DNA of 64,000 nt. It comes from Isoetes taiwanensis. Its lineage: Eukaryota > Streptophyta > Lycopodiopsida > Isoetales > Isoetaceae. Each line of letters opens with the position of its first letter. Position 1 is the first letter of the stretch. The notes under the pieces were generated by a model that worked only from the letters and a program-made list of their open reading frames with translations, searched no databases and had not been told where the DNA came from. The DNA is taken from NCBI GenBank assembly GCA_021234155.1, contig JAJEKV010000033.1:8360635-8424634 (forward strand), in the 5' to 3' direction. The translations under genes and the position numbers were made by a program. This document shows positions 8,395-51,690 of the stretch, one piece after another.

Positions 8395-8418
8395 GTAAGT
8401 ATATTTTTATAAAGCTAG

Positions 8419-8453
8419 AATGACGTATTTAGGAAAATTTAGACTTATTCAAG
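8419..8453 (+). repeat. Left terminal inverted repeat of element A
   Basis: Begins AATGACGTATTTAGGAAAAT and continues to 8453. It is identical over 35 of 35 bases to the reverse complement of 21789-21823. The outward four bases AGCT also recur two bases outside both ends, so the true terminus could be a few bases further out. Confidence 0.9.
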
Positions 8454-8595
8454 GTTTTTAGACTTGTTCATATTTATAATGATTTGAAACATTGAGTGTT
8501 TGATCTTCTGTTATTTCATAATCGTGCCAATAATAAGTATTAGTATAGAGAAGAAACCATTGCGAAGAAAATGAATTGTACTTTTGCATTTATTA

Positions 8596-11500
8596 TCAAT
8601 CACCAGTACATAATTCCAAATGACTTTGGACAATAGCAACTACATTGTCGGGTATTTTTTCAAGCTGTTTCATGGAAACTGCAGAGGTCTTTGCCTTCCA
8701 ACCATAGATTACTGATTGGACATCCACCCATTGCTGTTGTTCACTTGGATTTGGCTTCCATCTTTTGTAGCAACATCCATTGTATTGATCTTTTAAACTC
8801 TTCCTACCTTTAGTGAGTGGCTTCCACCATTGGATGTGAACTCGAAGACAATCTTTTAGTCCATCCTTTTGTTTAGTCGGTTTAGTCAATGCAGCACCTA
8901 GCCAAAATGGAGTCTCTTTCATATCATCAGGCCTCACAATGAGAAACATACCTTCCATAATGTCTTTTTCAGGTTTAAACTCCTCTTTTGGTTTACCACT
9001 TGCAGGGCCACAATACACCACTTCATGATCTTCTTCCTTCTCCTTGTCAGTCATCATTATAGGAACAACATCTAGATGTTGATGGAGCATCCACTGTGAA
9101 CGAGGCCAAAATCCATCTTGCAACTTGGAATTTCTTATTGGAGATTCCTGTAGTTCTGCTATGACATTTTCCCAATATGAAATAATTGGTCGCACTACTT
9201 CTTGATATTTGGAACCAAAATGTCCATTTAACCCGATTTTCCAAAAATCTATGTATTTTGAAATGCCAGATATGATATTTTCCTCTTCCCTCATATGTTC
9301 ATTAAGGGGCACAGGCTCAGGTTCACCTTTGGGCAATATTTGCCTACCAGCATCATCTTTTTTAAAAAGTTCAATACCATCTTCAGGCTCCCATGCCGCC
9401 TGCTTAGGATGCACCTTATACTGCATTCTAGGATCTCCTTTATCATCTAGATATAATCGAAAATGTAATGGCTTCGTATGTCCCACCAATTTATTGCGGC
9501 CATCTTCTATATAGCCATCCACAAATTTCTTAAAATCAGGGACTTCTTGTATGAGGTATGGAACATTTCTAGCAGATACACATGTTTCATACATCTCAAA
9601 TAATTGTGGCAAAGTGTGTGCATGCCTCTTTCTTAAACTGTCTCCAAATCTGCTAAAGAAGGCATCAATATCTTCATGTGTATGTCCAACCATAAGAAAC
9701 GCCATCACTATCTCTTTAAAATGCCCCCTTGCCACTAACATTGCCAAATATGCCAAGACAAATCGATTCTTGTTCTCAGAGACACAATTGTCAACCTGCA
9801 AGAGTAGAACTTTTGGCAGAGGCTTAAAATCATGATGTTCAACTCGCGTTAATTGCTTGCCATCTGTTCTTGCCAATAATGCTTTATGAAGGGGTTGTGT
9901 TGCTGAGGTGAAAGTTGGAGTTAAATCTCCTCTATCTCCAACGTTGTAACTCTCTAAATTCCGCAAACATTTGGCAATAGAACCTATTGTAAAATTTGGG
10001 TCAATTGACCAATTCCATGTGGCAAAATGACCATATGAAGCAGGACCATGCCCATGAGTGAGGATTCCTGCTAAAGCCATAGGCAATTGCATAGCATTCT
10101 TCGTAGTGTTTGGATTTGGTTTTAACCTAGGAATGCATGTCTTTTTTTGATCCATCTTGTCATGTATCAGACAAAAATTCTTGTGGCCTTCCGAAAGACA
10201 AATATCTCCATGAATAATAAATGTTGCGGCAACTTCGCTGTTCCATATTGTGCCTATCCATTTTATCACGAAGTATATCCCTCTCATGTGGATTTTTTGT
10301 GCTTTCCAACCTGTTCTTTAAATCTGTACATGTTTCACATTTTGAGAAGCTACTATTTTCTCGTGAAATAAGGACATCTTTGAAATCTTCATTCCACAAG
10401 CGGCTAAAGCTAGATTGGGAGATGTGTGGTAGTCCTTGCATGTTTAGAGATTCATTCACTTCCTTTAACATGGACATCATATTGTAGGTAGGTGGCATCA
10501 CCTTTTGATAATCTCTCTCTCCATCACATGTAATTCTACTTCGATGTGGCATCTGATTAGCTGTAACATCTACCAATTGTGTAAGTGCAACCTTTGCAGC
10601 CTCCATTCTTTCTGTACTTCGCTTCACAAGTTTGTTTCCATGCATGCCTTTTTTTGCTCCATTAAGCCACTTGATTCTCCTGTTATAGAAGGTGGCTTTA
10701 CAAATCCCATAAATTGTATACCATCCTTTACAACATACGATTTTTCCATCAAATAACATGCCCTCATATTTTCCATCTTCACCTTTTACACTTGCTGCAA
10801 AGCTATCATATGTGAAAGTTGTCTGATCATCAAATTTTAAAGAATGATATTGGTCCAGGGCGGTTAAGATCTTCTCTCGATTAGCATATTGGCAACAATG
10901 CTTTGGGCAACAATCAATAGATGCAACAATAGCAATATTCTCCATATCACAAGGGTCACTCTTGGCTTTTTTCACTACTAATTTGGCTCTCTTTCTCTTT
11001 ATGAAACGATAAGGACGCTTGTATTTCTTCATTCCTCCCCCCACATTAGTAACTTCTTCGTCAATTACGTGCTTTGCTCCAACCAATGATTCCCCATTGA
11101 GTAACATCAAGTTTTTGATAGGCCACCGCATAAGTTTTCCAATCTCGAATGAATTATCGTCAACCAGCATCTCAAACACTATAATTCCAAGGTCATCTTC
11201 TCCCAAGTAGGCACTATCAACAACTTCGTTTGTGAAGGCCACAACGATAAAAGCAAATCCCAACTTATTGTTCTCTTTATCTAGGACAATCACCCTATTG
11301 CCTGGCCATGTAGATCTATCATCTGGATTGAACTCGTGACCAGTTTGTTTAGGCGAGGTCGTTCCTTTAGGACTGGAAGCATGATTTTCAACATTTGGTG
11401 CACCTGTTAATAGTGGCCTCAAGTCGCTCTTTTTCCATCTCACAAAAGAACCAATATGCTCCAGTAGATAATCACGTGATGAAGTTGTAGGTTTGTCATA

Positions 11501-11738
11501 GACAACCTTTAAAGAAATGGAGACATATCCATCACCTAATATTTGGTTGTGGCAATATCTGTTTGGATCCATGGTGAATATGGTTCCTTGCGCTACATTC
11601 ATATCATTCTCCATGAGTTCAACTTGCATTCCTTCTTGGATTTCCTCGCTCTGTTATTAGCACTTTTGCTTGGTTACATAATACACATAACAATTTCATA
11701 ACTTGAATAAAAGATGACATCCACACCTGAGAAGCCAT
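8596..11738 (-). CDS. DUF7869-type DDE-like transposase of element A, two exons, one frameshift
   Basis: Start: ACCATGG context at 11738 encodes MASQ, then a donor (CAG|GTGTGG) and a 76-nt intron (11651-11726) joining in phase to SEEIQEGMQ. The N-terminal half (to about 10170) is followed, after a one-base frame change near 10165-10200, by the C-terminal half ending at 8596. Landmarks: zinc-ligand-like FSKCETCTDLKNRL; HDKMDQKKTCIPRL; QVDNCVSENKNRFVLAYLAM; MVGHTHEDIDAFFSRF. These are the hallmarks of DUF7869-type proteins; I infer the Asp residues of KMDQ and VDNC plus the acidic HEDID to be an RNase-H-like catalytic set. Combined length is about 1,000 aa. It would bind and cut the element's ends. 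The frameshift lies in a T-rich run, so it may be a mutation, an assembly error or programmed. Confidence 0.75.
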
Positions 11739-14204
11739 GGTGTCTCTATAACGACAAATGCAACGTGCTTAAGCTTCTTGAACCTGATTAGAAAAGTTCC
11801 AACACATGTTGAAGGTTACAAGATAGATAGATAATTAGACGTTGATTGCTCAAATATTTTGAATAAATGAATGGGGGTAACTTACATATTAGCTAAGTCT
11901 ATTTACATTGCCTACTTAACCTAAAACAAGTAGTGTGTACCTTAGAAACCATAACAAAATGTATTGTTGCTCTTTAGCTTCAAACCTGCAATATCAAATA
12001 AGAAATTTAATTTCTTGGAAACTAATAAAATACACAATTGATTTATAGAATAATTAATTGAAAGACATTTGATGTTTGTTTTTTGTTATGGAAGTTATCG
12101 TAGCTAGGTGAAATATTTGCTACCATGTATAAGATTCTTTGAATGTTTTCATTGTCGTATGAGACATGGCTAGGTAAATTGAAACCCCATGTAAAATAAC
12201 AAGGCCTATTAATCGAATGGGGTATCTAGCCATGGTCCTATGAGTTGGCGCTTAGGAAATAAAGTTCCAACATGAGTGAATGGGATATCTAGCCATGGTC
12301 CTATGAGCTGGCGCTTAGGAAATAAAGTTCCAACATGAGTTGGATGTGAGTTAGTTTTAGGATTACAGTAGATGCAAAAAGGAAGTTCAATTAACTAGTC
12401 CAATTGCTGTAGCTTCCACACCTGATTCAAGAGGCTCTAACCAGTATTAAATTCTTTCTTATAGACACCACCATTTTTGGGTGCTTTTTTTAAGGCATGG
12501 TTCTCCTTCCATAAACATTGTATAAAGAAGCTCAAGATGGATGCTCCCTCCGTCAACGTCAACACATGACTAGTTCAAAAAGGCAAATCTCGAATTTAGG
12601 GAAGTTCCAACATGTGTTGGATGGTTTAGGGTTAGGGCAGATGCCACGAAAGCAGACTTCAATGTTAGGGTTAGGGCAAAAGCAAATTTCATTTTGCTAT
12701 TTTGCTGGAACAGAGCAGACATCACGCTCTGCGATTTTTGCTTTCTTTCGATTTCTTTCATGCTCCAAATCGCCGGACCTGCGGGCTTCTTACCCACAAA
12801 AAATCGGCGCCAGAGCAGACATCACGCTCTGCCATTTTTCATTTGCTGTGTTTTCTGCTGTGTTTTGGATTTGCTCCAACTTCTATACCCAGAAGGTCCT
12901 GCCGATTGGCTGTGTTCCCCTTTTTTTCCCCTTCTGAACTGCGACTGCCAGCCCAGATCGTTCTTGCGGGTTCGTTTCTGGAGCCTTCCCAGTCCTTTTG
13001 AATCTGGTGATAGTGCTCTGTAGACCTTCGAAAAGAGCCAAAATACAAGATGGTGCTTTGCATGGATGCCCAACGACCACCAAGAATCGCAGGTCTTCCA
13101 TTTCTTTCTGAGCAGACCGCCAATACCTGGATGCATGCCAAATGGCCGGTCTTCCTTGTATTTCTTTCTGTGGTTTATATGCCAGAGGATCGGTGCTTGC
13201 CCTTTTCCAAAGCAGGGGGGAGGATTCAGCGGCAGAAGCGACTGCAGCTCTGATCCGGGACTTCTGATGTAAAAAAAAATAAAAGATAAGATCTTGTGCC
13301 AGGTTGCAGTAAGGTATGGCCTTGTTTGGCTTTTTCTTCTATGTGCAGTCTCGTTACTGGCAAAGCTGTGGTGCTTGATAAAATCATCAAGCATGTTCAG
13401 AATCTAAAAGGCCAACATGGTTGGATCTGAAGTTAGCAGTAACAGGGTTGACCTCAAAGAAATACAAAAAACATCAGATTAATCTTTTGCTTCTCTCTGC
13501 TAGCTACATTTCATTACCTTGTTATCTTCACAGGCGCAAAAGCTGGTGCAAAAGCTAGCTTCAATGTTCAATCTTCAGGTACAATCAGTTGTAATATCAA
13601 GAAGAAGAACTTCTTGAAAATATAGAATCAAGAAAATGTACAAGAATGTGCAGCAATATCAAATTTCCTGCGTAGGTTCCCCCGAAGAAGTGGGGTAACT
13701 AATTTTTAAATTTTAACACGTGGTCGCTTTTAAGGTGGTCGCTTTTAAGAGGCGTACCATTTTATCGTACCGTTTTATTTTTTAAATGCCCTTTACCTAA
13801 ATTAAATAGCCACGTGTGCATCTTTTAAGAAATAGATACATGCATTCCTTTTTCTTTCCTTTTTTTCCACACAGCGCCCTTCTTCTTTCTCGAGAACAGC
13901 AACGGCGATTATGGCACTGACAGCGACTTGTTTGAAGACTCAGCGACAGCGACTTGTTTGAAGAATCAGCGACTTGTTTGAAGAATCTTCTTTTCTCAAA
14001 ACTGTTTCTCTTTGTTGTTGGTTAAGTAATCAAAGCATTAGCCTGGTTTTAGTTGCTGTAACCAGGCTTTTCCCTGCTAAGGTATTATCCAATATAATTT
14101 TTTGAACACAGATATCTCATTCTCCTCATAAATTTTTTCTTTTTTCCAAGCCCAGGCCTGTTACAAAGATTGTAGGGCACTTTTTGCAGTTCTGTCCAAA
14201 TTTG
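11739..14204. other. Divergent promoter region of element A with short repeats
   Basis: Lies between the transposase start (minus) and the ParB-like start (plus). It holds a 60-bp direct repeat (about 12222-12340, core CCATGGTCCTATGAG), a repeated 25-bp segment (GCAGACATCACGCTCTGC at about 12714 and 12813), a short tandem CAGCGACTTGTTTGAAGA at 13920-13988, and single palindrome-family sites at 11799 (CCAACACATGTTG) and 12607-12620 (CCAACATGTGTTGG). Long overlapping open frames occur on both strands at 12520-13390, but no domain is recognised and they are more likely 5'-UTR or promoter sequence. Confidence 0.4.
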
Positions 14205-14539
14205 ATGGCAACCAAAAGAGGTGTGTTTTTTTAATTTATATCTATTCCATCCATGTCATAATGAGGATGCCAAATTGATATTTAATTGCTTCAACATGGC
14301 TACGTAATTCTCCATGGAATAATGTCATAGATATTTTTTTTTATCAAAGTTATTGTCACAAAATAGTTCTCTATTGTATAGGGTCATACAATAGATAGTT
14401 TATTGGTGTCTCCAGATAGTTTATTGTTGTCTATTTTGCAACAGTCTTCACTTATCTATTTCAAATGTTTCTAAAAAATTTCATCTAAATAATATATGAA
14501 CTTTAATATCTAGCCTCCAACTTTAATATCTAGTTTCTA

Positions 14540-16060
14540 TTGCCTTCCAACATATGTTGGAGGGTTAATGAAATTCCCATGAAGTTTTCTCACATTTTGG
14601 AGGTAGGCCTCCATCCAATTTAATGTCCTCTAATTTAATACTTGACCTTCAACATATGTTGGAGGTTTTTAAACTTGTTTTCAATGTGTTGGCCTAACTT
14701 CCAACATAGGTTGGAGGGTAAATGAAATTCCCATGAAGTTTTTGTCACATTTTTGAGGTAGGCCTCTGTCCAATTTAATGTCCTCTAATTTGATATTTGG
14801 CCTCCAACATATGTTGGAGGTTTTTAAACTTGTTTTTAATGTGTTGGCCTAACTTCCAACATAGGTTGGAAGGTAAATGAAATTCCCATGAAGTTTTCTC
14901 ACATTTTTGAGGTAGGCCTCTGTCCAATTTAATGTCCTCTAATTTGATATTTGGCCTCCAACATATGTTGGAGGTTTTTAAACTTGTTTTTAATGTGTTG
15001 GCCTAACTTCCAACATAGGTTGGAAGGTAAATGAAATTCCCATGAAGTTTTCTCACATTTTTGAGGTAGGCTCTGTCCAATTTAATGTCCTCTAATTTGA
15101 TATTTGGCCTCCAACATATGTTGGAGGTTTTTAAACTTGTTTTTAATGTGTTGGCCTAACTTCCAACATAGGTTGGAGGGTAAATGAAATTCCCATGAAG
15201 TTTTCTCATATTTTTGAGGTAGGCTTCTGTCCAATTTAATGTCCTGTAATTGGATATTTGGCCTCCAACATATGTTGGAGGTTTTTAAACTTGTTTTCAA
15301 TGTATTGGCCTAACTTCCAACATAGGTTGGAGGGTAAATGAAATTCCCATGAAGTTTTCTCATTTTTTGAGGTAGGCCTCATGTCCAATTTAATGTCCTC
15401 TAATTTGATATTTGGCCTCCAACATATGTTGGAGGTTTCAATGTATTGGCCTAACTTCCAACATAGGTTGGAGGGTGAATGAAATTCCCATGAAATTTTC
15501 TCACATTTTTGAGGTAGGCCTCTGTCCAATTTAATGTCCTCTAATTTGATATTTGGCCTCCAACATATGTTGGAGGTTTTTAAACTTGTTTTCAATGTGT
15601 TGGCCTAACTTCCAACATAGGTTGGAGGGTAAATGAAATTCCCATGAAGTTTTCTCACATTTTTGAGGTAGGCCTCTGTCCAATTTAATGTCCTCTAATT
15701 TGATGTGTTGCCTCCAACATATGTTGGAGGTTTTTAAACTTGTTTTCAATGTATTGGCCTAACTTCCAACATAGGTTGGAGGGTAAATGAAATTCCCATG
15801 AAGTTTTTGTCACATTTTTGAGGTAGGCCTCTGTCCAATTTAATGTCCTCTAATTTAATATTTGGCCTCCAACATATGTTGGAGGTTTCAATGTATTGGC
15901 CTAACTTCCAACATAGGTTGGAGGGTAAATGAAATTCCCATGAAATTTTCTCACATTTTTGAGGTAGGCCCTCTGTCCAATTTAATGTCCTCTAATTTGA
16001 TATTTGGCCTCCAACATATGTTGGAGGTTTTTAAACTTGTTTTCAATGTATTGGCCTAAC
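14540..16060. repeat. Tandem array (~154-bp unit, ~10 copies) with nine perfect 20-bp palindromes, inside intron 1
   Basis: CCTCCAACATATGTTGGAGG, a perfect palindrome, begins at 14801, 14955, 15108, 15262, 15417, 15557, 15711, 15867 and 16008. Spacing is 153-156 bp except two 140-141-bp units that lack the TTTTTAAACTTGTTTT segment. Each unit has a second imperfect palindrome (CTTCCAACATAGGTTGGA) about 57 bp later. Earlier degenerate copies lie at 14547-14560 and 14646-14665. The whole array lies in intron 1 (14221-16101) of the ParB-like gene. Minus-strand frames crossing it repeat the same peptide and are products of the repeat, not genes. Confidence 0.95.
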
Positions 16061-17576
16061 TAAGACTTCATAACTAATATTTGTCTCATTGTTTTTCACA
16101 GACAGCAATGCGAGATTTAGAGCAATTTCATTGGAAGACGTCAGTTTTGAAGACTATGATATGAAGCAAGATCTAATAAAGAAGAAATAGTTTTTTGAAG
16201 TGTTACATGGGTATACATCTTTCAACGATGTTTGCTTATTGGATGAAGATCGAAATATTTATGGAATATTATTGAAGCTTCATGATGTGCCTAGTGAAGA
16301 TGGTAATTGTATGCTTGAGGCTTTGGTGGAAAATCCAGGGGAGAACAAAATTTATGGATACTCTCTTTGCTTTGAAAATTTTGATGTTAATAAAATGGTC
16401 CAGACTGAGGAAATTGAAGTTAGTTGCCGACGTTATGGTTGGAAGCTGCCTAATTATAATGACTTGGAAGCAGCCGGTCTGCGTTCTCATGATGACCTTT
16501 ATGACGGGCTTCATATGATTTGTTCAAAATTATCCAGAGAGGATACTGGTTCTCAAGTTTATGCAAAGCTTGCAAACAAGATGCCTAAAGGTACTCAGAG
16601 TTGTTCTAAATTATTGAAGAAGAAAAAAGATGCTCCAAAATGTATGGATGATGGACAAAAAAAAAAAAGGAAGTCTCGGGAAGAAAGTAAGGAGAAAACT
16701 AAAGAGGATTTTAAAAAAAAAATAAGAAAAGAAAATCTCAAGAGGAAGGGAAAGAGAAAGCTTTAGCAAAAAAAGGAAATGATGATGTCAATGCCGTAAA
16801 AATATCAAAGGATAGTGCCATAATTTGCTTAATGGAAGGGTCACCAAAGGATGCTATTGTTGAGAAGTTGCCATTAAAACCTGAAGCGGATGATGGAAAA
16901 AGGTTGTGGGTAGTGCGGGAAGTTCAAGAAGAAGAAGAATAAACAGGAACTTAGCATTGGAGAGGCAGTTAAAGAAGATTCAAAGTATTTTATATTTGGT
17001 TTCCCGCTTCCCATCATGATTAACGTTCATAATTGCATCATTCCTGACCTTAGTAAATCTAAGGAATTTGCACAATGGAACTATCGGAAATTCAATCCAA
17101 GTCATGTTCAGTGGCTGCGAAATGAAATGTTGAGGCATCCTACTAGCACTCGGAGACCCGCTGACCTATTGCCTATAGATGCTACTACATTGCGGCCTCT
17201 TTGTGTAAAGAAATTGGATGAAGTTTGCGGCAGCAAAGATATGAGGTTCGTAGTAATAGCTGGTCAACATTCCATGAGGGCGATGCAGTTACTTTCAAAT
17301 GAATCTCCAGAATACAAGAGAAGGTGGGGCATCGTCGCAGCCGGGATCATTGCTCATGACACACCAATGTTAAAGTTAATGGAAATCTCCCGAGGCAAAC
17401 AAAAAGAATGAAAAAAAAATAAATTTGTCTCACCTTTTCTAGACCAGTTTGAGCAGGCTAGAGCACAATGGGAGATCATGAAGTGCCCTTCAAAACCAAT
17501 TCAAGGAAAGCCGACCAGTACAGAATTTAAGGTGGTTATTTGATTTTGTTATTTTTTGTAGTTTGACATCACACTT

Positions 17577-17640
17577 CCAACATGTGTTGGAAGTGTTTCT
17601 TAATAGCTAAATTTATGATTCAACTTCCAACGAGTGTTGG
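17577..17640. promoter_or_regulatory. Two more palindrome-family sites in intron 2 of the ParB-like gene
   Basis: CCAACATGTGTTGG (17577-17590) and CCAACGAGTGTTGG (17627-17640) fill most of the 142-nt intron 17532-17673. They are near-palindromes with the same half-site CCAAC as the intron-1 array. A further related perfect palindrome, CGAACATATGTTCG, lies at 19713-19726, just past the stop codon. Function is unknown; candidate binding sites for an element-encoded protein. Confidence 0.5.
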
Positions 17641-19990
17641 AGGTTTCTAATAGATATAATTTCTATTATGCAGGAGTTTGCTGAAATTGCAAAAGTCACA
17701 TTTGGAGGGAAGGCTTCAAAGGTCCGTGGATTTACAACCTTTTAACAAAGAGAGAAATATATTTGATAAGTGGAGGAAAGCTATTGATCTGTATAACAAG
17801 GGTGAATTGCCAGATTGGAAAGGGAATACTGGAGGTGCTAGAAGCGGAAAGGAGATAGTATTATCATTGTTTCGTTGCACGCAACAATTAAACATTAGGG
17901 AATTAGAAGATGTTGCGAATGCATTGTTGAAAGGATCAATTACTTGGAAGAGCAAGAAGGCGAATGAACGGGGGCTAGAACATGTGGCAGAGTATGCTGA
18001 TCGGTTGAAAGAATGTCGTATACTAAAACATGGCATGTTAACTCATATGAAAAATTATACGCGGGACCATAACTTGACTTTGTCAAGGTTATTTGTAGAG
18101 AGTCCTACAATCGCTTCATCATGGGAGCAACTTAGAGGCTATTGTTCAGCATGGTGCAAAGAAGTTTTGGATAAGAGTAAAAGTAGTAGGATGCCAAGCC
18201 TCGCCACTGATCAGCTTGAAGCCATGTGGGATACAGATCATGGGCAAGTTAGAATGGACCATAAAGTTATTGTTGTGTACAACATAGGACCAGGGGTCAC
18301 AAAGACTAGAGATGTAAGGGTTTTTGAGAAAGAGAGAACTATAGATTTAATTGTAGTTCACACACAAGAAGGGTGGAAGAAAAAAGATTTTGAAGATATT
18401 ATTAATCTGGTGGCTGATATCAATAAAGAGGTATGTTTTGATAAAGATTTATGGAATACTTCCATATTATTTTTAAATTTATTGAATCTTGGTTTTTTCT
18501 TCATGCAGAGCTCTTATTCTTATCTATTTTTCCTGACACCACATGAGATACATGATTGTACAGAGACCTTAAATGCTATCGAAGGCAAAGTGCAAATTCT
18601 TTTTGGTTATCATGAAAGTAATGCACCAGATAAAGGTGTTCTTGCACTAAAGACTTTTGTCATTCTTGCACGTGTTTCAAAGGATGCAAAAGGATCACTA
18701 GAATCACTATTATACAAGGATTGCTCATTATATTTTCGAACAGAAGATCCAGCTCCAGATTATGATCCAGTTTTACAGGTTGAAGATTCTAAAGAATTGG
18801 ATTTATATCTGAAGCCTATGAGCTATTCAATGGCCAGTGGATTGCAAGGTGGCGGGATTGTAAAAGGTATTATATTGAGAAATGGTATACTTAGGTTTAT
18901 TGATGCTCTCTCTAGGCCAAACCAAACAATAGTGGAGGTCAATTGTGGAGGCAATGTTGCTCGGGAAGCATTGCTACTTGATAGGCAAGTGATTGTCTTA
19001 ACAGATAATGCCATTCAAAAGACTGCAATTGAATCCATTATATCTGAGTTCTCAAAGCTGTCTCTATTTCACATACTCAAGAAAAGGGTGCAGATAAATT
19101 TGGGTATATCATGTGAAGTTCAGGAACTAGAATCTACATCTACAGCTTTTGAGACTGCACAACAAGTCTTGTCTACATCTTCTCCAAAAGAGCTTTCTCA
19201 TAAAGATGTAGAAGATGAAGATGCAGATGTAGATGTGGATGTGGATATGGATGTAGATGTAGATGGGAACATGCATGAAGATGTAGAGGAAGCACAGAAT
19301 GCAGAAGCACATCATCTACCCTTCCAGGAGGAAGGGTTACACTCCCCTGCAAGAAAGGAAGAAGCCTCACCAAAGTCTGGAGAGCATGATATAGAACATC
19401 ATGGTGGTGGAGAAGAACATGAGGAAGAAGCCATACCAACGTCTGGAGAGCATGATATAGAACATCATGGTGGAGAAGAACATGAGGTAGAGTTACAAGA
19501 GGAAGGGTTGCACTCCCCAATGCTTGCAAACAAGGAAGGTGACGAAAATCCAGGTGAAAATCTTTTCTATGTTCCTAAGAGAAATGCATTATGTTTTAGA
19601 GCTTACGGCTCTACAAGTGATTTTGAGGTTAAAAATATGTTAGAAGAGATTCAACTTGATGAATATGGCTCAAATTTGAACCTTGATTTTAATGAAGCAT
19701 AATGTATCACCTCGAACATATGTTCGATGTTTAAACTAATTGTTTTCTTCATTCGTAGGAATATGATGATGGTCGAATGAAGGATCCAGAGCTTTTTTTA
19801 TGAATGTCCAGAACCTCTTTATGTTCAGTATATGTTGTAGATTTCTTGTCATTGGAAAGACAAGAATGATATGGTTTTATAATCGTACAGTTTGTTTATG
19901 TCAATCAATTATAAAATGCTATTTTCATACCCTTTTAAATTGCTCTTTGTGTAAGGAACTAATTGAATAACTCTCAACTTGTTAATAGAT

Positions 19991-20896
19991 ATGGAAGTTG
20001 TACAAGCAACACCAATATTTCAACAAGGCTCGCGGAAACTCATTATTCTTGATATGAATGGAGTTTTATTGAAATGTGTACGTTTGGCAGATAATAAACA
20101 TGAGATCATAGTTAGACCGAACTGCCTTGCTTTTATCGAACACCTTCTAAAGTTTACAGAGGTTGCAATTTGGACAACAATGTCCGAGACAGGTTTATTG
20201 ACTTGTTTGGAAAAGATTGTGCCCAATGACAAGGTCTTCAAATTCTTATGGTGTCAAAGTAAATGCACAAATTTAGGTTATGACGAGCTTTTCCATAAGA
20301 GGCCATTTCTTATCAAAGATCTCAAGAAGGTATGGAGGCAATATCCAGAGTATAGTGTGCATAACACTATTATGGTTGATGATGATTACAGAAAATCATT
20401 TCGAAATCCAAAATATGTTGTCTTGCATCCTTTCCAATACAGGGGGAGTAAGGAAGATAACTTTCTAATGGAAGCTTTATTGCCTTATTTACGAGAAGCA
20501 TGTAATAATGGAAGCACACAAGAGTTTTTGAGATGTAATTTCAAGAAGGAATTTTTTCGTGAAAGATGGGAAGAAAATTCTGATGATGTACAGAAATCTT
20601 TATATTATGCTCAAGAGTATTGGGCACCTAGAGAAAAAATGCCGGATCAGCTCCACGGATCCAAACGAAGACTAATTTCACGCATAAATGATTGTAGTGA
20701 TAGTAAAGGAAGCAATTCTCGTGATATTAGACAACATGAGCAGACTAGAGCTTCTCGTGTTAAAAGGTATACAACTACCAGCAGCCAAGTCAGAATGTCT
20801 AATGCTGCGACAATGTTATTGGCCTTAAATACAGGATATCAAGGTAGACGCATCAATGCAGGCTTAGCAAGACAATATTTGGGATATAAATTGTGA
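19991..20896 (+). CDS. FCP1-homology (NIF-type) HAD phosphatase-like protein carried by element A
   Basis: ATG at 19991 follows an acceptor-like TTGTTAATAG, so an upstream exon is possible; as drawn the protein is 301 aa and open throughout. HAD motifs in order: motif I KLIILDMNGVLLK (nucleophile Asp kept, the usual second Asp is Asn, as in plant DLNG-type FCP1-like proteins); VAIWTTMS (motif II position); the Lys region RPFLIKDLKKVW; motif IV TIMVDDDYRKSF, followed by HPFQYRGSKEDNFLMEALLPYL. These are the signatures of CTD-phosphatase-like HAD proteins. The last 90 residues are basic and Ser/Arg-rich without a known domain. It follows the ParB-like gene on the same strand by about 290 bp. 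It is the least damaged ORF of the element. Substrate is unknown; the missing second Asp leaves activity uncertain. Confidence 0.7.
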   Translation: MEVVQATPIFQQGSRKLIILDMNGVLLKCVRLADNKHEIIVRPNCLAFIEHLLKFTEVAIWTTMSETGLLTCLEKIVPNDKVFKFLWCQSKCTNLGYDELFHKRPFLIKDLKKVWRQYPEYSVHNTIMVDDDYRKSFRNPKYVVLHPFQYRGSKEDNFLMEALLPYLREACNNGSTQEFLRCNFKKEFFRERWEENSDDVQKSLYYAQEYWAPREKMPDQLHGSKRRLISRINDCSDSKGSNSRDIRQHEQTRASRVKRYTTTSSQVRMSNAATMLLALNTGYQGRRINAGLARQYLGYKL

Positions 20897-21788
20897 AAAA
20901 AGGATGGCCGATGTTGGATACTATCTAACCATTCCCATTGTACAACTTTTTCCTAAATGTATATTCTTAAAAGCAATTTGATCATTATACATTCTATTTA
21001 TATGTTTATTATAACATAAATGTCCAATTCGTTTAGAAGAAGAAATATATCCTGAATGTTGTATAATCTTAAGAGCAATTTGACCATTATACATTCTATT
21101 TATATGTTCTTTATAACATAGATGTTGCTCAATAAGAAAAAGAAGTATTTTTGTCGTATCTCGCATTCTATGTTTCTTCTATGTTTCGTATAAAGTGGAC
21201 AATACAAGAACTATAGAGCAACATGTCCAATTCGATAACCAATTAAAGAGGGGGAAAAAAAGTTTTGTTTAAGGTGAATGGTGTAAGACCTATAAAGCAA
21301 TTGTGGTTCCAACTTTACTCCTTTTTTTACTAAGTATATAGACACTTTTGATTAATGGTTGAGAAATAGTTCTTGCTCACTTGCCTAAACTTTTATAAAC
21401 ATAGTTAAAGTTCAATCTCCTCCTCATTGAGATGTCAAATAATGGGTACACTAGATAGTCAATTTAATCCCTTAACATGTTACCCAGATGCATGGGTCCA
21501 ATCTATGAAGAAGGCATTTGATCTTGGGTCTAGTTGGCTCCTATGGCTAATGTACGAGCATCGAAAGCTCCATGTTTTCCATTGCATTTACTCATCCGTG
21601 TGTTATTGATATAGCTCTTACTATATTACTGATGGCTTATAAATATTGGGAGGCATCTTCTTGTGCTTATATAGCTAGTTGATACACTTTCTGGCATTTA
21701 CTCATATTACTGATGGCTTATAAATATTGAGAGGCATCAAGGTTCTTCAAGATTGTGTAGAAAACTATGCAAAGTCACATCAGTTAGA
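20897..21788. other. Right subterminal region of element A, non-coding
   Basis: No gene seen. Direct repeats at about 20968-21021 and 21071-21124 (core CATTATACATTCTATTTATA) and again at about 21630-21655 and 21711-21737 (core ACTGATGGCTTATAAATATT) make this a short-repeat-rich subterminal zone, as is common for large DNA transposons. It is unlike the left end, where the transposase gene nearly reaches the terminus. Confidence 0.5.
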
Positions 21789-21823
21789 CTTGAATAAGTC
21801 TAAATTTTCCTAAATACGTCATT
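21789..21823 (-). repeat. Right terminal inverted repeat of element A
   Basis: Reverse complement is identical over 35 bases to 8419-8453. Read on the plus strand it ends CCTAAATACGTCATT. Flanking AGAGCTGG outside the end resembles AAAGCTAG outside the left end (6 of 8). Confidence 0.9.
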
Positions 21824-23359
21824 AGAGCTGGATGCATGCCATCATCCTCTGTTAACCAGGTTTAGGAAGTTGTCTTGTGTGAGAAATGAATCTTAGAGGG
21901 AACCGTCATATTGCTTTTCCTCTGAACAGCAATCCTGAACTCATTGTTGCTAATCCACCACCTCCTCCTCCTCCTAAAAAGACTAGATCTTCCACACCCC
22001 TCATTTCTGCCCAGAAGAAATCTCAAGCTGGTAAAAAACTTGTTAGAGGACCTGCCAGAGGTTCATGGACTGGAATATGTGCTATGGGCGGGTAGGATTT
22101 GGTCTTGGGCATGGATTGATTGGGTTTGGTTGGACTTTTGGAAGCAGGTCGGTAGTCATAGCCTTTGGTAGAAAACTCCAAGTGCATAAAGGACCCCGGC
22201 AAACCAAAAGCATTGAATAAAGTAACTCGGCATCAGAGCTACCAATTTCCCCCGGCAACCTAAATTAAGTCAGTCAATATATTTGGGGACATCTCAGTGG
22301 TCCCTTCTAAGAGACAAATCCACAATAATTCTCTTATTGATCTGGCATTTGGATATTGCTTCAACACGATGACATTTTTCTCTGATTCAGAATCGCTATA
22401 GGTGGAAGGAAATCAAGGCATACCCCATCTAGAGGAAGGAAAGAACAAGACATTCTATCAGCTTGAGAGATATTGAGCTAATGGCATAAGCATGAGAGAA
22501 CCTGCATATTGCTTTACAGAGAACTTTGAATCTATTTAGATCTGAAGGAGAACTTTGAATCTATTTAGATCTGAAGGAGACATTAGTTCCACTGGATAAA
22601 GGACAGTTCGTTTCATCCATGGCCGCCTTTCAAAAAAACCTCTAAAGGGATCGCCCTGCCTGTAATTTGTCACTAATTTGTCACTGCCTATTTTTCTGTG
22701 ACACAGATTTCTACGTTTGTCACTGCCTATTTTTCTGTGACACAGATTTCTACGTTCTCTCATCTCTGGCATGTTCGCTATCCGTTGTGATCCAATCAGA
22801 TAGCTATGCATAAGCAGAGAAGGCGCTGGTTAATAAGAACAAGATTTCTCACAGACCATTATGATCCTTGGTATCTTTAAGCAAGCATAGGACTAAAATA
22901 CGTGCTGGGATGCCGTCGAATAACTGGACATAAAAGACTGCCTAGTCAAACCTTACACAGATAACTCTCAGGAGCACACAAATCTTAACCAAGTTTTGCC
23001 AAGACCGCTGCTTAAGCTTGGTATAAGCCAGCAACTATCCTTAGCTTGGCTCTTCAAACTTCTGTTAGACTTATAACTGTAAAAAAAGGGGGAATAAAAA
23101 ATCTGTGAATTACATGCAATTGTAAAATATATGCAGTACACCACAACCAAAAAGCCTAGAAAGGTGTCTCATTCCAAATTATCATTCCAGAAGCACACAA
23201 AAATGGTTCACATTTACAAAGGTATATACAGCAACTTAAAACTCTAAAATATGACAACACCAAAAACGCCTATACATATACATGATGATACCACAATTTA
23301 GCATGTCGTTAATAGCTGTGGAAACGCCGATATATACATGGCACAACTTTAGCATGTCC
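21824..23359. other. Intergenic, with a possible exon and two tandem duplications
   Basis: An open frame at 21886-22095 starts MNLRGNRHIAFPLNSNPELI and has a run of seven prolines (CCACCTCCTCCTCCTCCTAA at 21957-21976); it may be an exon of the gene split by element A, but there is no proof. Exact short tandem duplications occur at about 22519-22576 (29-bp unit) and 22678-22755 (39-bp unit, core CACTGCCTATTTTTCTGTGA). Otherwise nothing is recognised. Confidence 0.35.
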
Positions 23360-34318: not shown

Positions 34319-37300
34319 TTGAACTGCAACAACCCGATTCCTACGTCACCCGTCCCATTCCAATTTTCTACGCCACCCGTTCCATTCCAATTTCCACCTA
34401 ACCGATTCCTAAACCCACCCGCGCCTTTCCTAAAGCACACGGCTATGGCGCTTAATCCGGTTGTGGATCAATCCGGTTCATACTTAAAATCATTTAATTT
34501 GGAAGCAAATCTACCTAAAATCTCAAACCGGAGCACAGGTGTGAGAAAGAGAACTCCAGAATAAGAACGGGATCATAAAAGACGCCAAAGGAAAAGAAAA
34601 AGGGAAGCTAAAGAAGAATTAGCAAAAATTGCATCAGCAGAGGGAGGGTCCACCAGAACGGCCTCTACTAGGCGTCGGATGGTGTTGAAATTATTATCTT
34701 CATTTCATAGCACCACTAAAGGCTTACCGACAAGTGATAAGAAAGAGGTTTTACGAGATTTCCGGAAGATGACACAATGGGCGTACTTGGTGAAGAAGTG
34801 AAAGATTTGCAAGCCAAGAGCATTGTGGTCAGCAACCTCAGGGCTTCCATTCAACTTGTGAAGAAGTCTAACAGCAATGACAGTTTAGCAACCAAGAGTA
34901 GTTGCCTTGCTATGGTCGTAAGAGGAAGCATTACCGAAAATGCTAATCCTGTCAGTGCTCGGGGTTTTGGTAAACTGCTGGGTGTTCATCCTAGGAATCT
35001 TACCAAAGCAAAATTGAAGAGGGAAGAGATAGATTGCAAAGGGGGGAAATTGGGTTTTGTACAAAAGCATTAGAAGAGCAAATGCAATTCCCAATTATGT
35101 CATAGAATTTGTGCAGCAATTTTGGACTGAAAACAGTAGGGTCTCTCCAAATGCAAAGGATGTCAAGTTCAGAAGATTGGAGCGAAATATAAGAGAGGAT
35201 CATGCCACTCTATCTGGAAGAATCACAGGTTATTTCATTTCTTCATCTTCACCACATTTTTTATTGTTAATGTGGTATGTGGTTAGTGATTGCTTGTGAT
35301 ATGTGGTTGGTGTGGTTAGTGATTGCTTGTGGTATATAGTGCCTATTAATGCTGTGATATATGATATGTGCTGCCTAGTGTGGTGAGGCACGTGATGTAA
35401 AATAAATGCTGTAAATATATGCTTTGTGGTGCCTAGTGTGGTGAATAACATGGTGTAAAATACATGTTGTAATATATGCTATGTGGTGCCTAGTGTGGTG
35501 AAAAATATGGTGTAAAATAAATGCTCTAAATATACGCTTTGTGGTGCCTAGTGTGGTGAATAACATGGTGTAAAATAAATTTAATAATATATGCTATGTG
35601 GTGCCTAGTGTGGTGAATAAAATGGTGTAAAATAAATGCTGTAATATATGCTATGTGGTGCCTAGTGTGGTGAAAAATATGGTGTAAAATAAATTATGTA
35701 ATATATGCTATGTGGTGCCTAGTGTGGTGAAAAATATGGTGTACAATAAATTATGTAATATATGCTTTGTGGTGCCTAGTGTGGTGAATAACGAGGTGTA
35801 AGATGAATGTCTGTAATATATGCTATGTGGTGTCTAGTGTGGTGGAAAATGTAGTGTGCAATAAATATGCTGATCACCTTGTTATCTTCCTTTGCAGGTT
35901 GCAATTGTTCGGGGGAAATTCAAGACGGAACATCCTAGTGTTATGATCAAGCAGAGGATGTTTGAAAAATTTGAAACCATGGTTTGTTGTAAAATTAAAG
36001 GACTTCAATAGTTGCTGCTGTATATACCATGTTAGAATGCAGATGCTAATAGATGGCTTCAATAGTATGAGAACTAAGCACCCAAAAAGCTGTAGCTGCA
36101 CTTATCAACTTTGCAGGTCAGACATATATGGTGAATGCAGGGCGTCTGAATACAAAATAAGTAGCACAAGAAGTCTGTGGCAGGGAATTTTATGTGAGAA
36201 AACTAGCTTTCAACCTTACCATAAGAGCGAATGCATTTTGGGTGAGTGTAAAGAGTGTGGGATTAAGAAGTTCCCTATCTGCCCACATGAACAATCTAGT
36301 GATAGTGGCATGGTGAAGTGGGAATACCTAGACTATGAAAAAACTATATTCAGAGATGGCAGCAAGAAGTCTAAGCTCGTTCACCAACACAATGAAACTC
36401 CAAGTCTTCCATTGGTGAACAAAATGTTGGAGAAGCTTCCAAAATTTCCTTTACACAACTTCAGATATAGGTGGCAGGCAGGCCAGTACAAAGAACTCCT
36501 TGATAACTTGCCTGGAGATGCTTACCTATCCGTGGTTGACTTCAAGCAGAGAATTATACTTTTAAGGAGCGTAATGAAGTTCACTTCCATGCTACTGGGT
36601 CAACAACCGATAACTATATTTGTTCAAATAACCTACCGGTTGATCCACGACGAACACCATTGAGAAGGAAACACACTACTATGTGCCGGATGATAGGGAA
36701 CATGACACACTTTTTTGTTCAACATTGTTTTATGAAACATTTTGAGTACTTTAAAGCAGAAAAGGCAATGTCCCCAAACAAAGACTATGTATTTTCAGAT
36801 GGTGCCGCATCACAATTCAAAGCAACCCGGATCATTTTATTTTGTTGGAAGGTACGGTTGTGATCTGAGAGGTCAACATGATGTGGAACTTCTTGGGATC
36901 AAACCATGGAAAAGGTGAACGTGATGGAAAGGCAGCAGAATTGAAAAGATGGATAATGAGGTCTACAGACTTAAACATCCCGACATTAAACTAGATAATG
37001 CCCATGATGTGGTGAAAATTGAGAAACAATTTCAATGTGGTACATCCGAGTAGACCGAAAATGGAAGAAAAGTTGAGGAGATACTTCGGGAAATAAAACC
37101 CGAGGATATCAAATGGGAAAAAGGCTTGGGGTGCGAGAGACAATTCCTTAAACCGTGCAAATTCATTCGGTCCATGGATTCAAGACAGAAATCCAACACG
37201 ACTACATACTAGAAAGCTATCATGTTTTTGCAGCAATTGTTTGGATGGAAAATGGGACATGTGTGAGAACAAATTGTATGTAGATGAATGGAACCTTGTA

Positions 37301-41762: not shown

Positions 41763-41793
<31 letters not shown>
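40285..41793. other. No gene recognised; ends in a 27-base A run
   Basis: Short frames only. A direct repeat AACTTGAGTTGCAAACTAAATACCA-like (about 40643 and 40670) and a repeated AGATTTTAAAATATGAAATACG-type segment (about 41172 and 41236) are present. A homopolymer A run at 41767-41793 abuts the first long direct repeat exactly. Confidence 0.4.
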
Positions 41794-44313
41794 CCAGCCT
41801 GAACTAGAATCCTAGACCAGACATCTGCCTCAGTCAATCCCTTGGCAGTATTATCACTCTACTACTAGCATGAGCCTTTCTAGTATAGTATCATTTTACC
41901 TCTCATAATCAGACCATGTACATGTATTACTAGATCATCTCGATATTCCCATACTAATGTATTCTTTTATGTTAAATGGTAACTGCCTTTAGGGCTTATA
42001 TGACAGTAATTTTCAGACCAGAGACATGAAAAAGCCACAATGTCCCAATTAATATTATCTCCAAAACATGAGAGAATTTAAGTCTTAGACCCAATATCAT
42101 TAGGGAATAGACACCATTTACTTTCATATTTAAAGACCAAAAAGAGACCTTATATCATAAATACATCTGCATTAAAGGTCTGAGATAATTTGAGTATTAT
42201 AACGAGTGCTATTCTGGAACCTTATCCTAACTATGTAGAGCTAAACTTGTAGCTTTATTTAACTTTTATTATTTCGCTCCTTCCACTACATACTTATAGG
42301 CGGGAAGACCATTCTAAGATGTATGTGAATTAATAGTTTTGAACCATCAATGTGATCTCAATCCTATGATTTTCAACCTGTGGTTTTGACTATAGTCTAT
42401 ATGTCAAGTCTAAATGGAATAATATTATCCCCTCATGGTCATCTTACTATATCCAATTAATGGGTGTGGATGTACAAAACTTTTAGCAAACCAGATATAA
42501 TTGCGTAAAACCGGATATAATTCCTTAAAACCATATATAATTGCAGTACAGTTTTCTGCCACTTTTTATCTCCATATATTAAGTTTCACTATATGAGAGT
42601 AAATCATCTATAAAACATATTCATAGATCCTTTTTCCTTTTAACATCAGTAATCCATATACGATCAAACAGACCATACTTCCTAGTCTATATCATTCCTC
42701 ATAATGTATTATAAGCAACCTTGCACTTTTATAAACTTAAAACCAAAAAGAACCCTGTTCGCGTGCTCTGTGGACTGATCAGTGTGTTGTATGAGAACTC
42801 CAGTTGCATTGTTTTTCAAAACTTGATCCATCCTTGTAGCCAAACCACACTTGTAAAGCAAAAGAGACAATGAGAAGAAAACCCCGTACCTGCAGCCAAA
42901 CAATACCCTGTTAGCATAAAAAATGGTATCAGGGCAAGGGCCAAAAGGTACATTGGGGTTTTCAGCTCTTCGCTGATTACCCATTGTTCCTTTTGCCCTA
43001 TTAGTACGCCTTGACTATAAGAATATACTGAAATCAGAGATTAACATTGGTATTTCAGCTGAAACCCATGCTTGTAATTAGATCTAAGGATCACTGCTAT
43101 AGAATAATCCATAATTTCAAACCTGTCACAAATCCTCAAACCTGATTCTTGTTTGTAAGCTTTACCTTATCATCATGTTAAATAGTGAACTGGTTATCAG
43201 CTGAAACATGTAAAAAAGATTTTTTTACTTAACCATTCATATGTAGCCTTATGTATTTCTAATGCATCTCGCCTTGGTCGGAATCCTTATGAGTAAACAA
43301 GCCTCACAAGTTTTCTTATGTGAAGTCAGGCCATCAGCAAATGAATTTATTTATGTGACCTTAACAACCTATCCAACACCTAGATCTATTATGTAATCTG
43401 ATCGAAGTCTGGATAGGACTCTATTGTGTTTTAGAGCAGCAAAAAGCCATTGTTTCTAATGTATAGTGTGAACTTCAGTCTATTAGCTATCAGCCGCCAC
43501 CATTATGGTCATAAAATTTGGACAATATACCTCTATTTGTATCCTTACAGACGTATTCCTAATGCATCTAGCATTCACCTGAATCTTTATGAGCAGACCT
43601 GCTTCATAGTTTTCATCATGTGGAATCAGGAACTACCTTTTGTAAATAAATCTATGCCATTATAGACTCCTATTAAAGCTTGTAAATCCAAATGAAACCT
43701 GATCAAAGTCTGGGTCACCATCAATCTCCTGAGTTTCTTGGATTATTTGTCCATCATGATATTCATCCTGGCGCCTTTTGCCGAAATGCCTGGGACTTTT
43801 TTGATAATATCTATCGTCCCTTTGAAAGCCGCCTCTTCTTTGCCCATAGCCTCCTCTACTGCCTCTAGCATCCATTTCGCGGATCAGACTTAGATAGACG
43901 AACTGTATATGCTTCAAGCTCCCTCTTCAAATCAGAAATATTAAGTATATCATTATCCGAGTCCGATGCCTCATTTTCATCAGAAAAATAGCCCATTATG
44001 TGGGCGTTTGCACCCAAAAACACCCCAGCTACTGAATCCTTGTCATAGATCTTCTGCAAGGTCCACCGGCCTTTACCGCTATTCAAGCACGCATTCACTA
44101 AATGCACCGTTTTAGGGTTTTATTTTTATTCACTACTATAGAATCATATGCAATTAAACTTGGTAGTTTTCATAATAGTTAAACGGCCCTTGCAATACAA
44201 CTTAGACCATTGTATATTTTCTGGAATAACTAGGTCTATATTGTAGCTCTTTCCAAGACATCATACTATGAGTAAAGATTTAGAAGATTCAATAAAAGGT
44301 ACTTCTTGCACTA
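41794..44313 (+). repeat. 2.5-kb direct repeat, copy 1 (left of the reverse transcriptase gene)
   Basis: From CCAGCCTGAACTAGAATCCT to GGTACTTCTTGCACTA this block matches 48634-51146 in the same orientation along its full length with scattered small differences (for example TTATTTCGCTCCTTCC versus TTATTCTGCTCCAGC). Both copies begin and end at A-homopolymers. They flank a 4.3-kb region carrying the reverse transcriptase gene, so the whole 41794-51146 may be one element with long terminal direct repeats, or a head-to-tail tandem with the first copy truncated. Confidence 0.9.
43660..44092 (-). CDS. RGG-rich C-terminal exon candidate of the reverse transcriptase element
   Basis: Reads KGRWTLQKIYDKDSVAGVFL ... 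SDENEASDSDNDILNISDLK, then after a one-base frame change MDARGSRGGYGQRRGGFQRD and RYYQKSPRHFGKRRQDEYHD to a stop at 43660. The arginine/glycine repeats are of the RGG type known to bind RNA. It lies just downstream of the RT exon on the same strand; that exon ends at a good donor (GAG|GTATGA), but I could not find an acceptor that keeps frame, so linkage is inferred. The duplicate at 50497-50814 reads through the frameshift site, so the exon was once continuous. Confidence 0.45.
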
Positions 44314-44483
44314 ATAAAAAAAAAAAAAACCCTTCCACCTACCGTGGAATGAAGTCCAACACTCCTATTCATTTAATCACTCTATGATCATGGGGATGGC
44401 TAACCCCCACTATCATAGTAGGGGTTGAGCCTCATCCCATCTTTATTAGAAAAAAGCATGTGAAATGAAAGTATCTGTCATAC

Positions 44484-46562: not shown

Positions 46563-47189
46563 CTGTTTTAATCATATAAAGAAGACTGAAAGTTAGTAAA
46601 CTAGTCTACTATGTATTGGTATGGCTTAAGGAGGAAATCATGGTCGTTATCCATATAGGATTATCCATAACTTCTGGAGCATTATTTAGGCCTTGTGGCA
46701 GTAGTTGGTCCATATCTAATGGGCAACTACTTATTGTTATTATAAAGTTAGTACTTTTCATCCAACATTGACTTAGTCATATATGTAAAGATGCATATTT
46801 GAACATTCAAAAACTTCTTTCATCTAGATCATTTATTTATGAAAATATCATTCAGAACTATCATCATACCTTATGGTCCATATTTGAGAACTTAATGTAC
46901 CATCAACAACATACTGACCTTCTTGTATTACTATCTTTGGTAACGCGAGTTCTCCATAACACTCTCGGGCTGTTCAGCCTTTCAACGAAGGGGTACTATC
47001 GAGTGCTTTCGGCTTTCATTGGGGTACCCGGGTAATAAAGTGTAATTTTGGGGAGCATTTATTTTGAAAGTTGAACCGCTAGATCCGGGCTGATCTACCC
47101 CTGTTTAGATATCTTGTTCTTTGCTAGTACTAGCAAGTGGCAAATGTACCCTTAAGAAAATTGATAGATTTGATCGCCTTTTCACATAC

Positions 47190-48451: not shown

Positions 48452-48633
48452 CTGCACACATCATGTGTCATAGGTCATTAATATTGTTAGTGGTGTCCAG
48501 TGGATGTAATCAAGTATTAAATAGTGAATAAACCTAAGTAGCAGCTTAGGTCAACATAAATGCTCAAACCATAGGAGAGAAAGTAAATGACAACACCGGA
48601 TGTCCCCAGTGTAGTGAAGTATCTAAAAAAAAG

Positions 48634-51146: not shown

Positions 51147-51690
51147 AAAAAAAAAAAAAAAAAGGGCTAGCAAAAAGGCACGCCAGGGGCTGTTGCCAAG
51201 TTATGCAATGCAATGAAGGTTTTTAAATCATGTTCTTGAATTTTAGGTATCATTAGTTGTTTTATGTGGAGGAAGCCAAAGCCATAATTTACCTTTATTT
51301 CTCAGGCATATTAGTTGTTTTATATGGAGGAAGCCAAAGCCATAATTTACCTTTATTTTCAGGCATATTAGCAATGGAATAGAAGCTTGCTATGTAAATA
51401 AACGTGATCAAAATATCAAGACAAAATCCAATTGAGATTACTGAATACATCAAAATTTGTACATCAATTTTGGAGCATAATGGATTTGGAAGAGTAGCAC
51501 AACTGGTGATGCCAAATTTGTCTGATGGCAAATCCATGATCCCGAAAATAGCAGCATTGCCTTTCCATTTGAAATTGACCAAAATCATAGGCGTTCTGAT
51601 AGATGCCCCAAAAGTTTGGCAACTTTTGTAAATACTGGGGTATTTGACAAATAGCCCAAAATACAAGGCAATTTTAAAGTTCCTTTTTTA

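Follow-up and report, generated by a model that had tools for sequence, protein, structure and literature searches.

The 64,000-nucleotide window of the Isoetes taiwanensis genome analyzed here contains a 13.4-kb DNA transposon in which a DUF7869-type transposase gene lies opposite a conserved accessory module, rather than passenger cargo. This module appears to combine an FCP1-like phosphatase with a ParB-like protein whose methyltransferase-like domain looks degenerate, and it includes short palindromes (dyads) that are specific to each transposon family. We propose that the ParB-like protein binds these palindromes, recognizes its own element, and regulates or de-silences it, with the FCP1-like phosphatase acting at the same place; we regard this proposal as evenly poised between right and wrong.

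With respect to its ends, the element proper occupies positions 8420-21822 of the window and is bounded by perfect 34-bp terminal inverted repeats (TIRs, beginning ATGACGTATTTAGG) and by a 4-bp target-site duplication, TAGA, on both sides. An inverted-repeat search of the window returned arms at 8413-8453 and 21789-21829. A preliminary description of this stretch had reported perfect inverted repeats of 35 bp; these are real and perfect but 34 bp long, the 35th pair being an A/T of the TAGA duplication. The large 13.4-kb transposon with divergent genes that it outlined is upheld by the TIRs, the duplication, and the placement of the transposase gene on the minus strand and of the other genes on the plus strand. 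In the same genome (1,658,258,908 bases in 1110 contigs), the left end (202 bp) gave at least 40 scored matches and the right end (224 bp) at least 42 match rows, the window's own being counted in each case, and 11 elements could be traced at both ends, correctly oriented. These many matches, together with the two-ended elements, indicate that the inverted repeats of the window are not due to chance. An identical 4-bp duplication flanks 9 of the 11, specifically TAGA in the window, AATT in both C961 and C279, TTTT in C1043, GTTT in C1068, ATAT in C1034, AATA in C1046, and AATG (37.7 Mb) and ATAT (50.6 Mb) in two elements of C907; the remaining two, C1030 and C1082, are without a matching duplication. 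Three of the nine elements with a duplication are 37-45 kb long, presumably owing to nested insertions. Taken together, the TIRs, the fixed-length duplication, the transposase gene, and the dispersed copies identify the element as a TIR (class II) DNA transposon. Two left ends, L032 (C1046) and L046 (C1104), share an identical 16-bp flank, and one of them may therefore be a segmental copy rather than an independent insertion.

In terms of classification, the Sola superfamily is characterized by a 4-bp target duplication, which is also the length found in this family. En/Spm-CACTA elements have TIRs that begin CACTA/G and duplications of 3 bp or shorter. Membership in that group was rejected, as the TIR here begins ATGAC and the duplication is 4 bp; the Transposase_23 (TNP1/EN/SPM) profile scored 16.6 bits on the window against a threshold of 21 (expectation value, E, 0.0074).

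The ends and genes of the element occur together throughout the genome. Methyltransferase-like and FCP1/NIF-like genes are found across from a transposase in all 10 of the copies fetched first, and 8 of these copies also gave a ParB-like match (C941 has none, and C1030 lacks matches to both the N-terminal domain and the ParB-like domain). These 10 copies were picked because end, methyltransferase-like, and transposase matches led to them, a bias that affects a genome-wide count less. Among the matches listed, 46 methyltransferase-like loci had, within 30 kb, a ParB-like match in 38 cases, an FCP1-like match in 37, an element end in 27, and a transposase in 18; the corresponding figures were 37 methyltransferase-like, 34 ParB-like, 32 end, and 20 transposase for 67 FCP1-like loci, and 22 ParB-like, 20 FCP1-like, 18 methyltransferase-like, and 33 end for 51 transposase loci. 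The chance expectation for each of these counts is about 0.1-0.2. The count used hand-entered rows (phosphatase, 71 of 134; methyltransferase-like, 50 of 92; ParB-like, 60 of 150; transposase, 52 of 85; ends, 78 of 82), the omitted rows being additional exons of loci already entered, fragments with weaker matches, or members of a distant family. Many loci miss one or another part of the set among the matches listed, and the genome-wide association of the parts is far beyond chance. Other copies thus share both the ends and the genes, which bears out the grouping of ends, transposase, ParB-like, and FCP1-like genes put forward in the preliminary description.

All genes of the element are under purifying selection between lineages. 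The ratio of nonsynonymous to synonymous divergence (dN/dS, Nei-Gojobori), obtained from pieces picked without internal stops, which favors intact sequence, and omitted for many between-clade pairs in which dS was saturated, is mostly 0.05-0.31, and the N-terminal domain, ParB-like, methyltransferase-like, phosphatase, and transposase sequences are alike in this regard. Higher values were seen for the phosphatase (window/C1043, 0.39; C1068/C1102, 1.0 at a dS of 0.007), the methyltransferase-like part (C996b/C1026, 0.44), and the transposase (window/C1067, 0.45). Pairwise distances of the five genes are correlated (r 0.68-0.96), with at most 7 of 2000 permutations reaching these values. Two copies, C1068 (L017/L018) and C1034 (L019/L020), are apparently chimeric, as though halves had been exchanged: their transposase half is 0.89-0.91 identical to that of the window, and their accessory half only 0.48-0.65. 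This mismatch suggests that the accessory half moved as one block.

The dyads are family-specific. Copies of TCCAACAT/ATGTTGGA, where the slash marks the center, number 10 (exact) and 27 (three or fewer mismatches) in the window element, against none in the 50.6 kb of the window outside it. Twenty of the 27 sites lie in an array of ~154-bp units (14.5-16.0 kb), three lie 5′ of the transposase gene, two follow the ParB-like exon, and one separates the two right-hand genes; the last, a three-mismatch match at 20407, falls in coding sequence, so that 26 of 27 are non-coding. Perfect dyads of at least 16 bp number 12 in the element versus 0.15 expected, and 11 of these are of the TCCAACAT/ATGTTGGA kind, the other being an unrelated one at 9073 in the transposase gene. 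The dyad between the right-hand genes (19712) is also present in copies C1080, C279, C1043, C1027, and C1106. Genome-wide, the exact 16-mer occurs at 132 places (reversed control, 1), and of the 50 of these places that were listed, 38 have a family match no more than 25 kb away. In a sister clade, clade B, the dyad reads TCCAACAC/GTGTTGGA, a symmetrical change of the central CAT/ATG to CAC/GTG that is found in 12 of 12 perfect dyads of the clade B copies (C961, C941, C996b, C1026, and C179). The distant family C has a CTCG/CGAG core in 13 of 15 perfect dyads (L058-L060), and its exact 16-mer TCGACTCG/CGAGTCGA occurs at 4,623 genome places (reversed control, 0). Of the bases in 21 loci, 37% belong to stretches with homology to the element's proteins, and none of the 160 sites in these loci (at most one mismatch) is in such a stretch; 115 are located between the divergent genes, 24 downstream in the region of the ParB-like gene, and 21 are unclassified. 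In one family member, L057 (C1034, 12.96 Mb), two copies of another perfect dyad, TGTATTCC/GGAATACA, may reflect a further specificity.

With respect to the encoded proteins, the transposase and phosphatase assignments of the preliminary description are both corroborated by profile searches. DUF7869 (PF25273) matches the minus-strand transposase of the window at E 5e-48 (163.6 bits versus a gathering score of 26), and the FCP1/NIF profile PF03031 matches the plus-strand phosphatase-like gene at E 4e-19 (69.3 bits versus 21.8). The phosphatase-like protein also matches the UBLCP1 structure 3shq (E 1.4e-5), and a homologue search returned four weak NIF proteins. The catalytic motif of FCP1/SCP phosphatases is DxDx(T/V); aligned rows covering this motif, as well as the corresponding place in family C, read DxNG, and C1068 reads YxNG. 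As judged from these profiles, its identity as a NIF/HAD protein is secure, and with DxD replaced an enzymatic role is putative.

The N-terminal and ParB-like parts are probably one protein, as they share a common open frame in C1043 (511 aa), C1080 (540 aa), and C961 (482 aa), and from exon order the methyltransferase-like exons likely belong to this protein as well. The ParB-like and methyltransferase-like frames of the window have no Pfam match. The ParB assignment is weak and draws on a GQH motif, on sub-threshold matches to PHROG and DGQHR profiles, and on a published parallel considered below; the DGQHR match involves 3 of 8 members (E 0.067), and PHROG matches fall in seven families, all three described ones being ParB-like partition protein. 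The methyltransferase-like assignment is weaker than the ParB one, and the domain looks degenerate. PF01555 matched 1 of 25 pieces at E 0.15, and unrelated families scored better in the same scan, for which the pieces were ungapped members of alignment A1, whose second exon is misaligned. Further profile and structure searches of this part gave no methyltransferase match, and its frame had no homologue among 7,999 scored candidates from a database that appears poor in plant proteins. Motif IV of N6/N4 amino-methyltransferases is (D/N/S)PP(Y/F/W); its place, located by eye, reads HTQEGW or HTDGGW, motif I reads VNCGGN, and no catalytic motif is recognizable. Of the methyltransferase-like cargo suggested earlier, a faint profile likeness stands, the role in chromatin or DNA modification proposed for it is putative, and the name active methyltransferase was rejected for this half of the protein.

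Family C bears on the age of the module. Searching the genome with the ParB-like exon gave 150 scored matches from 1541 candidates. Identities are about 47-93% for the window family; a second large set falls mostly in the range of 31-41%, and some of its members adjoin DUF7869 transposases of 37-41% identity. All three places read in this family pair a transposase with a ParB-like exon in the divergent arrangement of the window, with a transposase identity to that of the window of about 0.35-0.36, so that the ParB-like partner is old relative to these families. Two of the three (C907 and C1056) were followed far to the right. C907 (9.78-9.80 Mb) carries DUF7869 (E 8e-44, 149.9 bits) and a NIF phosphatase (E 2.9e-10, 40.5 bits) that is 28% identical to that of the window, and the phosphatase may accordingly also be old, as judged from this one place. 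At C907, a frame that occupies the place of the methyltransferase-like exon has no Pfam match and is homologous by pattern only; its start recurs at the margin of the C1075 place (E 3e-9). Elements of family C (L058, L059, and L060) are abundant and have their own 22-bp dyad, TTCTCGACTCG/CGAGTCGAGAA.

A related combination of genes is already in print. Passages of the report on Sola1-1_Ec32, a 21.5-kb DNA transposon of the brown alga Ectocarpus, describe a ParB and methyltransferase gene opposite the transposase and a methyltransferase domain predicted to make N4-methylcytosine (4mC) or N6-methyladenine (6mA), suggest that the accessory protein binds and marks its own transposon, and cite green and red algal relatives (PMC12477816). 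The Isoetes element is likewise a giant DNA transposon with a ParB-like and methyltransferase-like gene opposite the transposase; it also has an FCP1-like gene and palindromes, neither of which those passages mention, and its methyltransferase motifs look degenerate. The preliminary description knew of no element with both a ParB-fold and a CTD-phosphatase-like protein; for the ParB-fold protein this is not right. DUF7869 was not mentioned in the literature searched, and none of the papers listed joined such elements with an FCP1-like gene or with palindromes. As the ParB and methyltransferase accessory is published, the palindromes are the new, testable part. They make visible the probable target of a self-binding accessory protein, in the form of perfect, family-specific dyads that number thousands in family C and avoid coding parts. 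The algal suggestion of own-transposon binding thereby becomes directly testable, is extended to a land plant, and gains an FCP1-like partner.

In its working, the proposed system most resembles that of the VANDALs, which are Mutator-like elements (MULEs). In Arabidopsis VANDALs, according to passages of one report, the element-encoded anti-silencing protein VANC binds motifs and brings about loss of methylation; these motifs are family-specific, form tandem arrays within introns and between genes, and evolve with VANC, that of VANC21 being the 9-bp YAGTATTAY (PMC5735166). The Isoetes element similarly pairs an encoded protein with short family-specific motifs in non-coding tandem arrays that change between related families. 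Unlike in the VANDALs, its site is a perfect dyad and its protein ParB-like; the likeness proposed is one of working and not of membership. We therefore propose a system that would work like VANC in self-recognition and anti-silencing, with ParB-like chemistry and an FCP1-like helper; if true, sequence-specific self-recognition of transposons would exist in a second form alongside VANC. Fungal KDZ elements with TET/JBP genes are similar in that a DNA transposon carries a putative epigenetic accessory gene, and differ in the accessory enzyme.

In the scheme we favor, a cut-and-paste-type family, as suggested by the 34-bp TIRs, 4-bp duplications, and DUF7869 transposase, has its palindromes dispersed through non-coding sequence, which in the window means 5′ of each gene and within putative introns. 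The ParB-like protein would bind these as a dimer and so recognize its own element, binding would keep the element transcribed or free of host silencing, and the phosphatase would act there, at RNA polymerase II or chromatin. The symmetry of the dyads suggests a dimeric reader, the way they stay out of coding DNA and close to genes points to a regulatory role, and the symmetrical change between clades, along with the wholly different dyad of family C, suggests a reader diverging with its element. The ParB-like protein, which is conserved together with the dyads and is of a DNA-site-binding kind, is the candidate for this reader that the sequences suggest, the transposase being the other. Bacterial ParB-parS systems have clustered palindromic sites near the ParB gene and ParA or SMC partners. 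The element has a ParB-like motif and clustered palindromes near the encoding gene; unlike the bacterial systems, it shows no ParA or SMC partner and no Pfam ParB match, and its dyads, at 16-22 bp and many per element, differ from bacterial parS. A fuller eukaryotic counterpart, in which a clamp would load at family-private palindromes, spread, keep RNA polymerase II active with the phosphatase and silencing out, and co-diverge with its palindromes, is in our view rather improbable.

Several observations weigh against self-recognition by a ParB-like protein. The ParB profile PF02195 has no match in the genome, and the same profile matches in 11 of 14 control genomes; the best PHROG match to ParB-like partition protein is sub-threshold (E 0.0074, 3 of 8 members), and the ParB fold named in the preliminary description has profile support at this level only. 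Alignment A6 of the ParB-like part found no homologue at E ≤ 1, tblastn of the family C ParB-like protein against phages gave only E 2, a search of solved structures by sequence returned nothing useful for the ParB-like or methyltransferase-like parts, and two AlphaFold2 models (from 15- and 13-row alignments) had a mean pLDDT of 40 and 35, too poor to use. At C1056, no methyltransferase-like or phosphatase match was found within ~8.7 kb past the ParB-like exon, where a retroelement frame lies. With respect to the dyads, 12 of the 50 places listed have no entered family match within 25 kb, and 4 of the 21 loci have no site (C1030, C1106, C1037, and C1034b, the last three fetched in part). The clade-specific picture is also not a simple one: clade A copies C1068, C1034, and C1027 each hold one ACACGTGT-core dyad besides, C279 holds one TCCAACTTAAGTTGGA dyad, the dyad of C1034b is of another kind, the only one in C1037 is unrelated, and perfect dyads are absent from C1067 and C1030. 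Covariation between half-sites exceeds independence at the outer pairs only (27 versus 14.5, 17 versus 4.3, and 5 versus 1.9) and not at the inner pairs (center, 18 versus 19.0), and the sites share a common descent.

Other explanations assign the dyads to a different partner or to none. Transposases commonly use repeated internal sites, and the dyads could be subterminal or promoter repeats bound by the transposase or a host factor, with the ParB-like protein otherwise engaged, for example as a transposase partner. This would fit the location of 115 of the 160 sites between the divergent genes, that is, in the promoter region, and the chimeric copies C1068 and C1034, which have the window's dyad alongside a window-like transposase half, if anything fit it too; the dyads are nonetheless far from the ends, and 24 of the 160 are in the region of the ParB-like gene, outside its coding parts, and we consider this explanation unlikely on balance. 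The palindromes might instead be by-products of tandem-repeat expansion, RNA hairpins, or terminators, without a protein partner. Such an origin, to which the concentration of 20 of 27 window sites in one ~154-bp tandem array lends itself, seems decidedly doubtful given that some sites in C961, C941, and family C are located outside the intergenic region, that symmetry is kept as the sequence changes between clades, and that all 160 sites avoid coding stretches.

Two further explanations concern the accessory genes. The accessory protein could be catalytically active as a DNA methyltransferase, binding its own transposon and marking it, as proposed in print for Sola1-1_Ec32, with which the element shares, in the passages on it, the same two domain kinds and strand layout. 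The single PF01555 match (E 0.15) and the Rossmann-kind alternation of strands and helices in the low-confidence model of mean pLDDT 40 are in keeping with this; set against the unrecognizable catalytic motifs, the unrelated families that outscore PF01555, and the other searches without a methyltransferase match, they leave the idea quite improbable. Capture of the right-hand genes from the host, with no function for the element, is highly unlikely. Plants do have host FCP1/NIF proteins, and capture by transposons is common, but the ParB-like gene occupies the same place at ~36% transposase identity, the phosphatase does so at one such place, and purifying selection and genome-wide co-occurrence apply to both; host-gene passengers were rejected on these grounds of placement, selection, and co-occurrence.

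The layout of the window copy is given in the table below. Relative to aligned copies, this copy is decayed and frame-broken, as judged by the loss of frame in the transposase and in the ParB-like gene; an intact transposase frame, single and 1037 aa long, is present in copy C1080. The start of the N-terminal domain given in the table is a suggested one, and the frame of the listed open reading frame is open from 16191.

Features of the transposon copy, in positions of the whole window
Feature	Position	Strand	Basis or remark
Left target-site duplication TAGA	8416..8419		End sequence
Left 34-bp TIR	8420..8453	+	Inverted-repeat search; left-end matches in genome
DUF7869 transposase gene	8596..11653	-	Two overlapping frames, 10160-11653 and 8596-10317; Pfam match
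Three dyad sites (11798, 12329, 12606)	11798..12621		5′ of transposase gene
Tandem array, ~154-bp units	14431..16061		20 dyad sites (TCCAACATATGTTGGA or one mismatch), 14546-16025; 5′ of ParB-like gene
N-terminal domain of ParB-like protein	16104..16766	+	Lysine-rich linker at its end
ParB-like domain	16914..17411	+	Motif VIAGQHSMRAMQLL; frame lost near 17405 in window copy
Two dyad-like sites (17576, 17626)	17576..17641		Between ParB-like exon and next exon
Helical region and first half of methyltransferase-like domain	17660..18430	+	Homologous exons in copies
Probable intron, GT...AG, 78 bp	18431..18508	+	Homologous exons in copies stop, then resume here
Second half of methyltransferase-like domain and acidic C-terminus	18509..19702	+	
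Dyad TCGAACATATGTTCGA	19712..19727		Between the two right-hand genes
FCP1/NIF-type phosphatase-like gene	19967..20896	+	Profile match; DxNG replaces DxD
Right 34-bp TIR	21789..21822	-	Inverted-repeat search; right-end matches in genome
Right target-site duplication TAGA	21823..21826		End sequence

Elsewhere in the window, a tandem array of ~57-bp units occupies 35299-35866. The region 41785-51148 holds two ~2.5-kb direct repeats with 95-100% identical blocks, 6.84 kb apart, that surround a 697-aa reverse-transcriptase-looking frame (44478-46571, minus strand) and a 337-aa frame; by eye, this region looks like a Penelope-like or similar retroelement.

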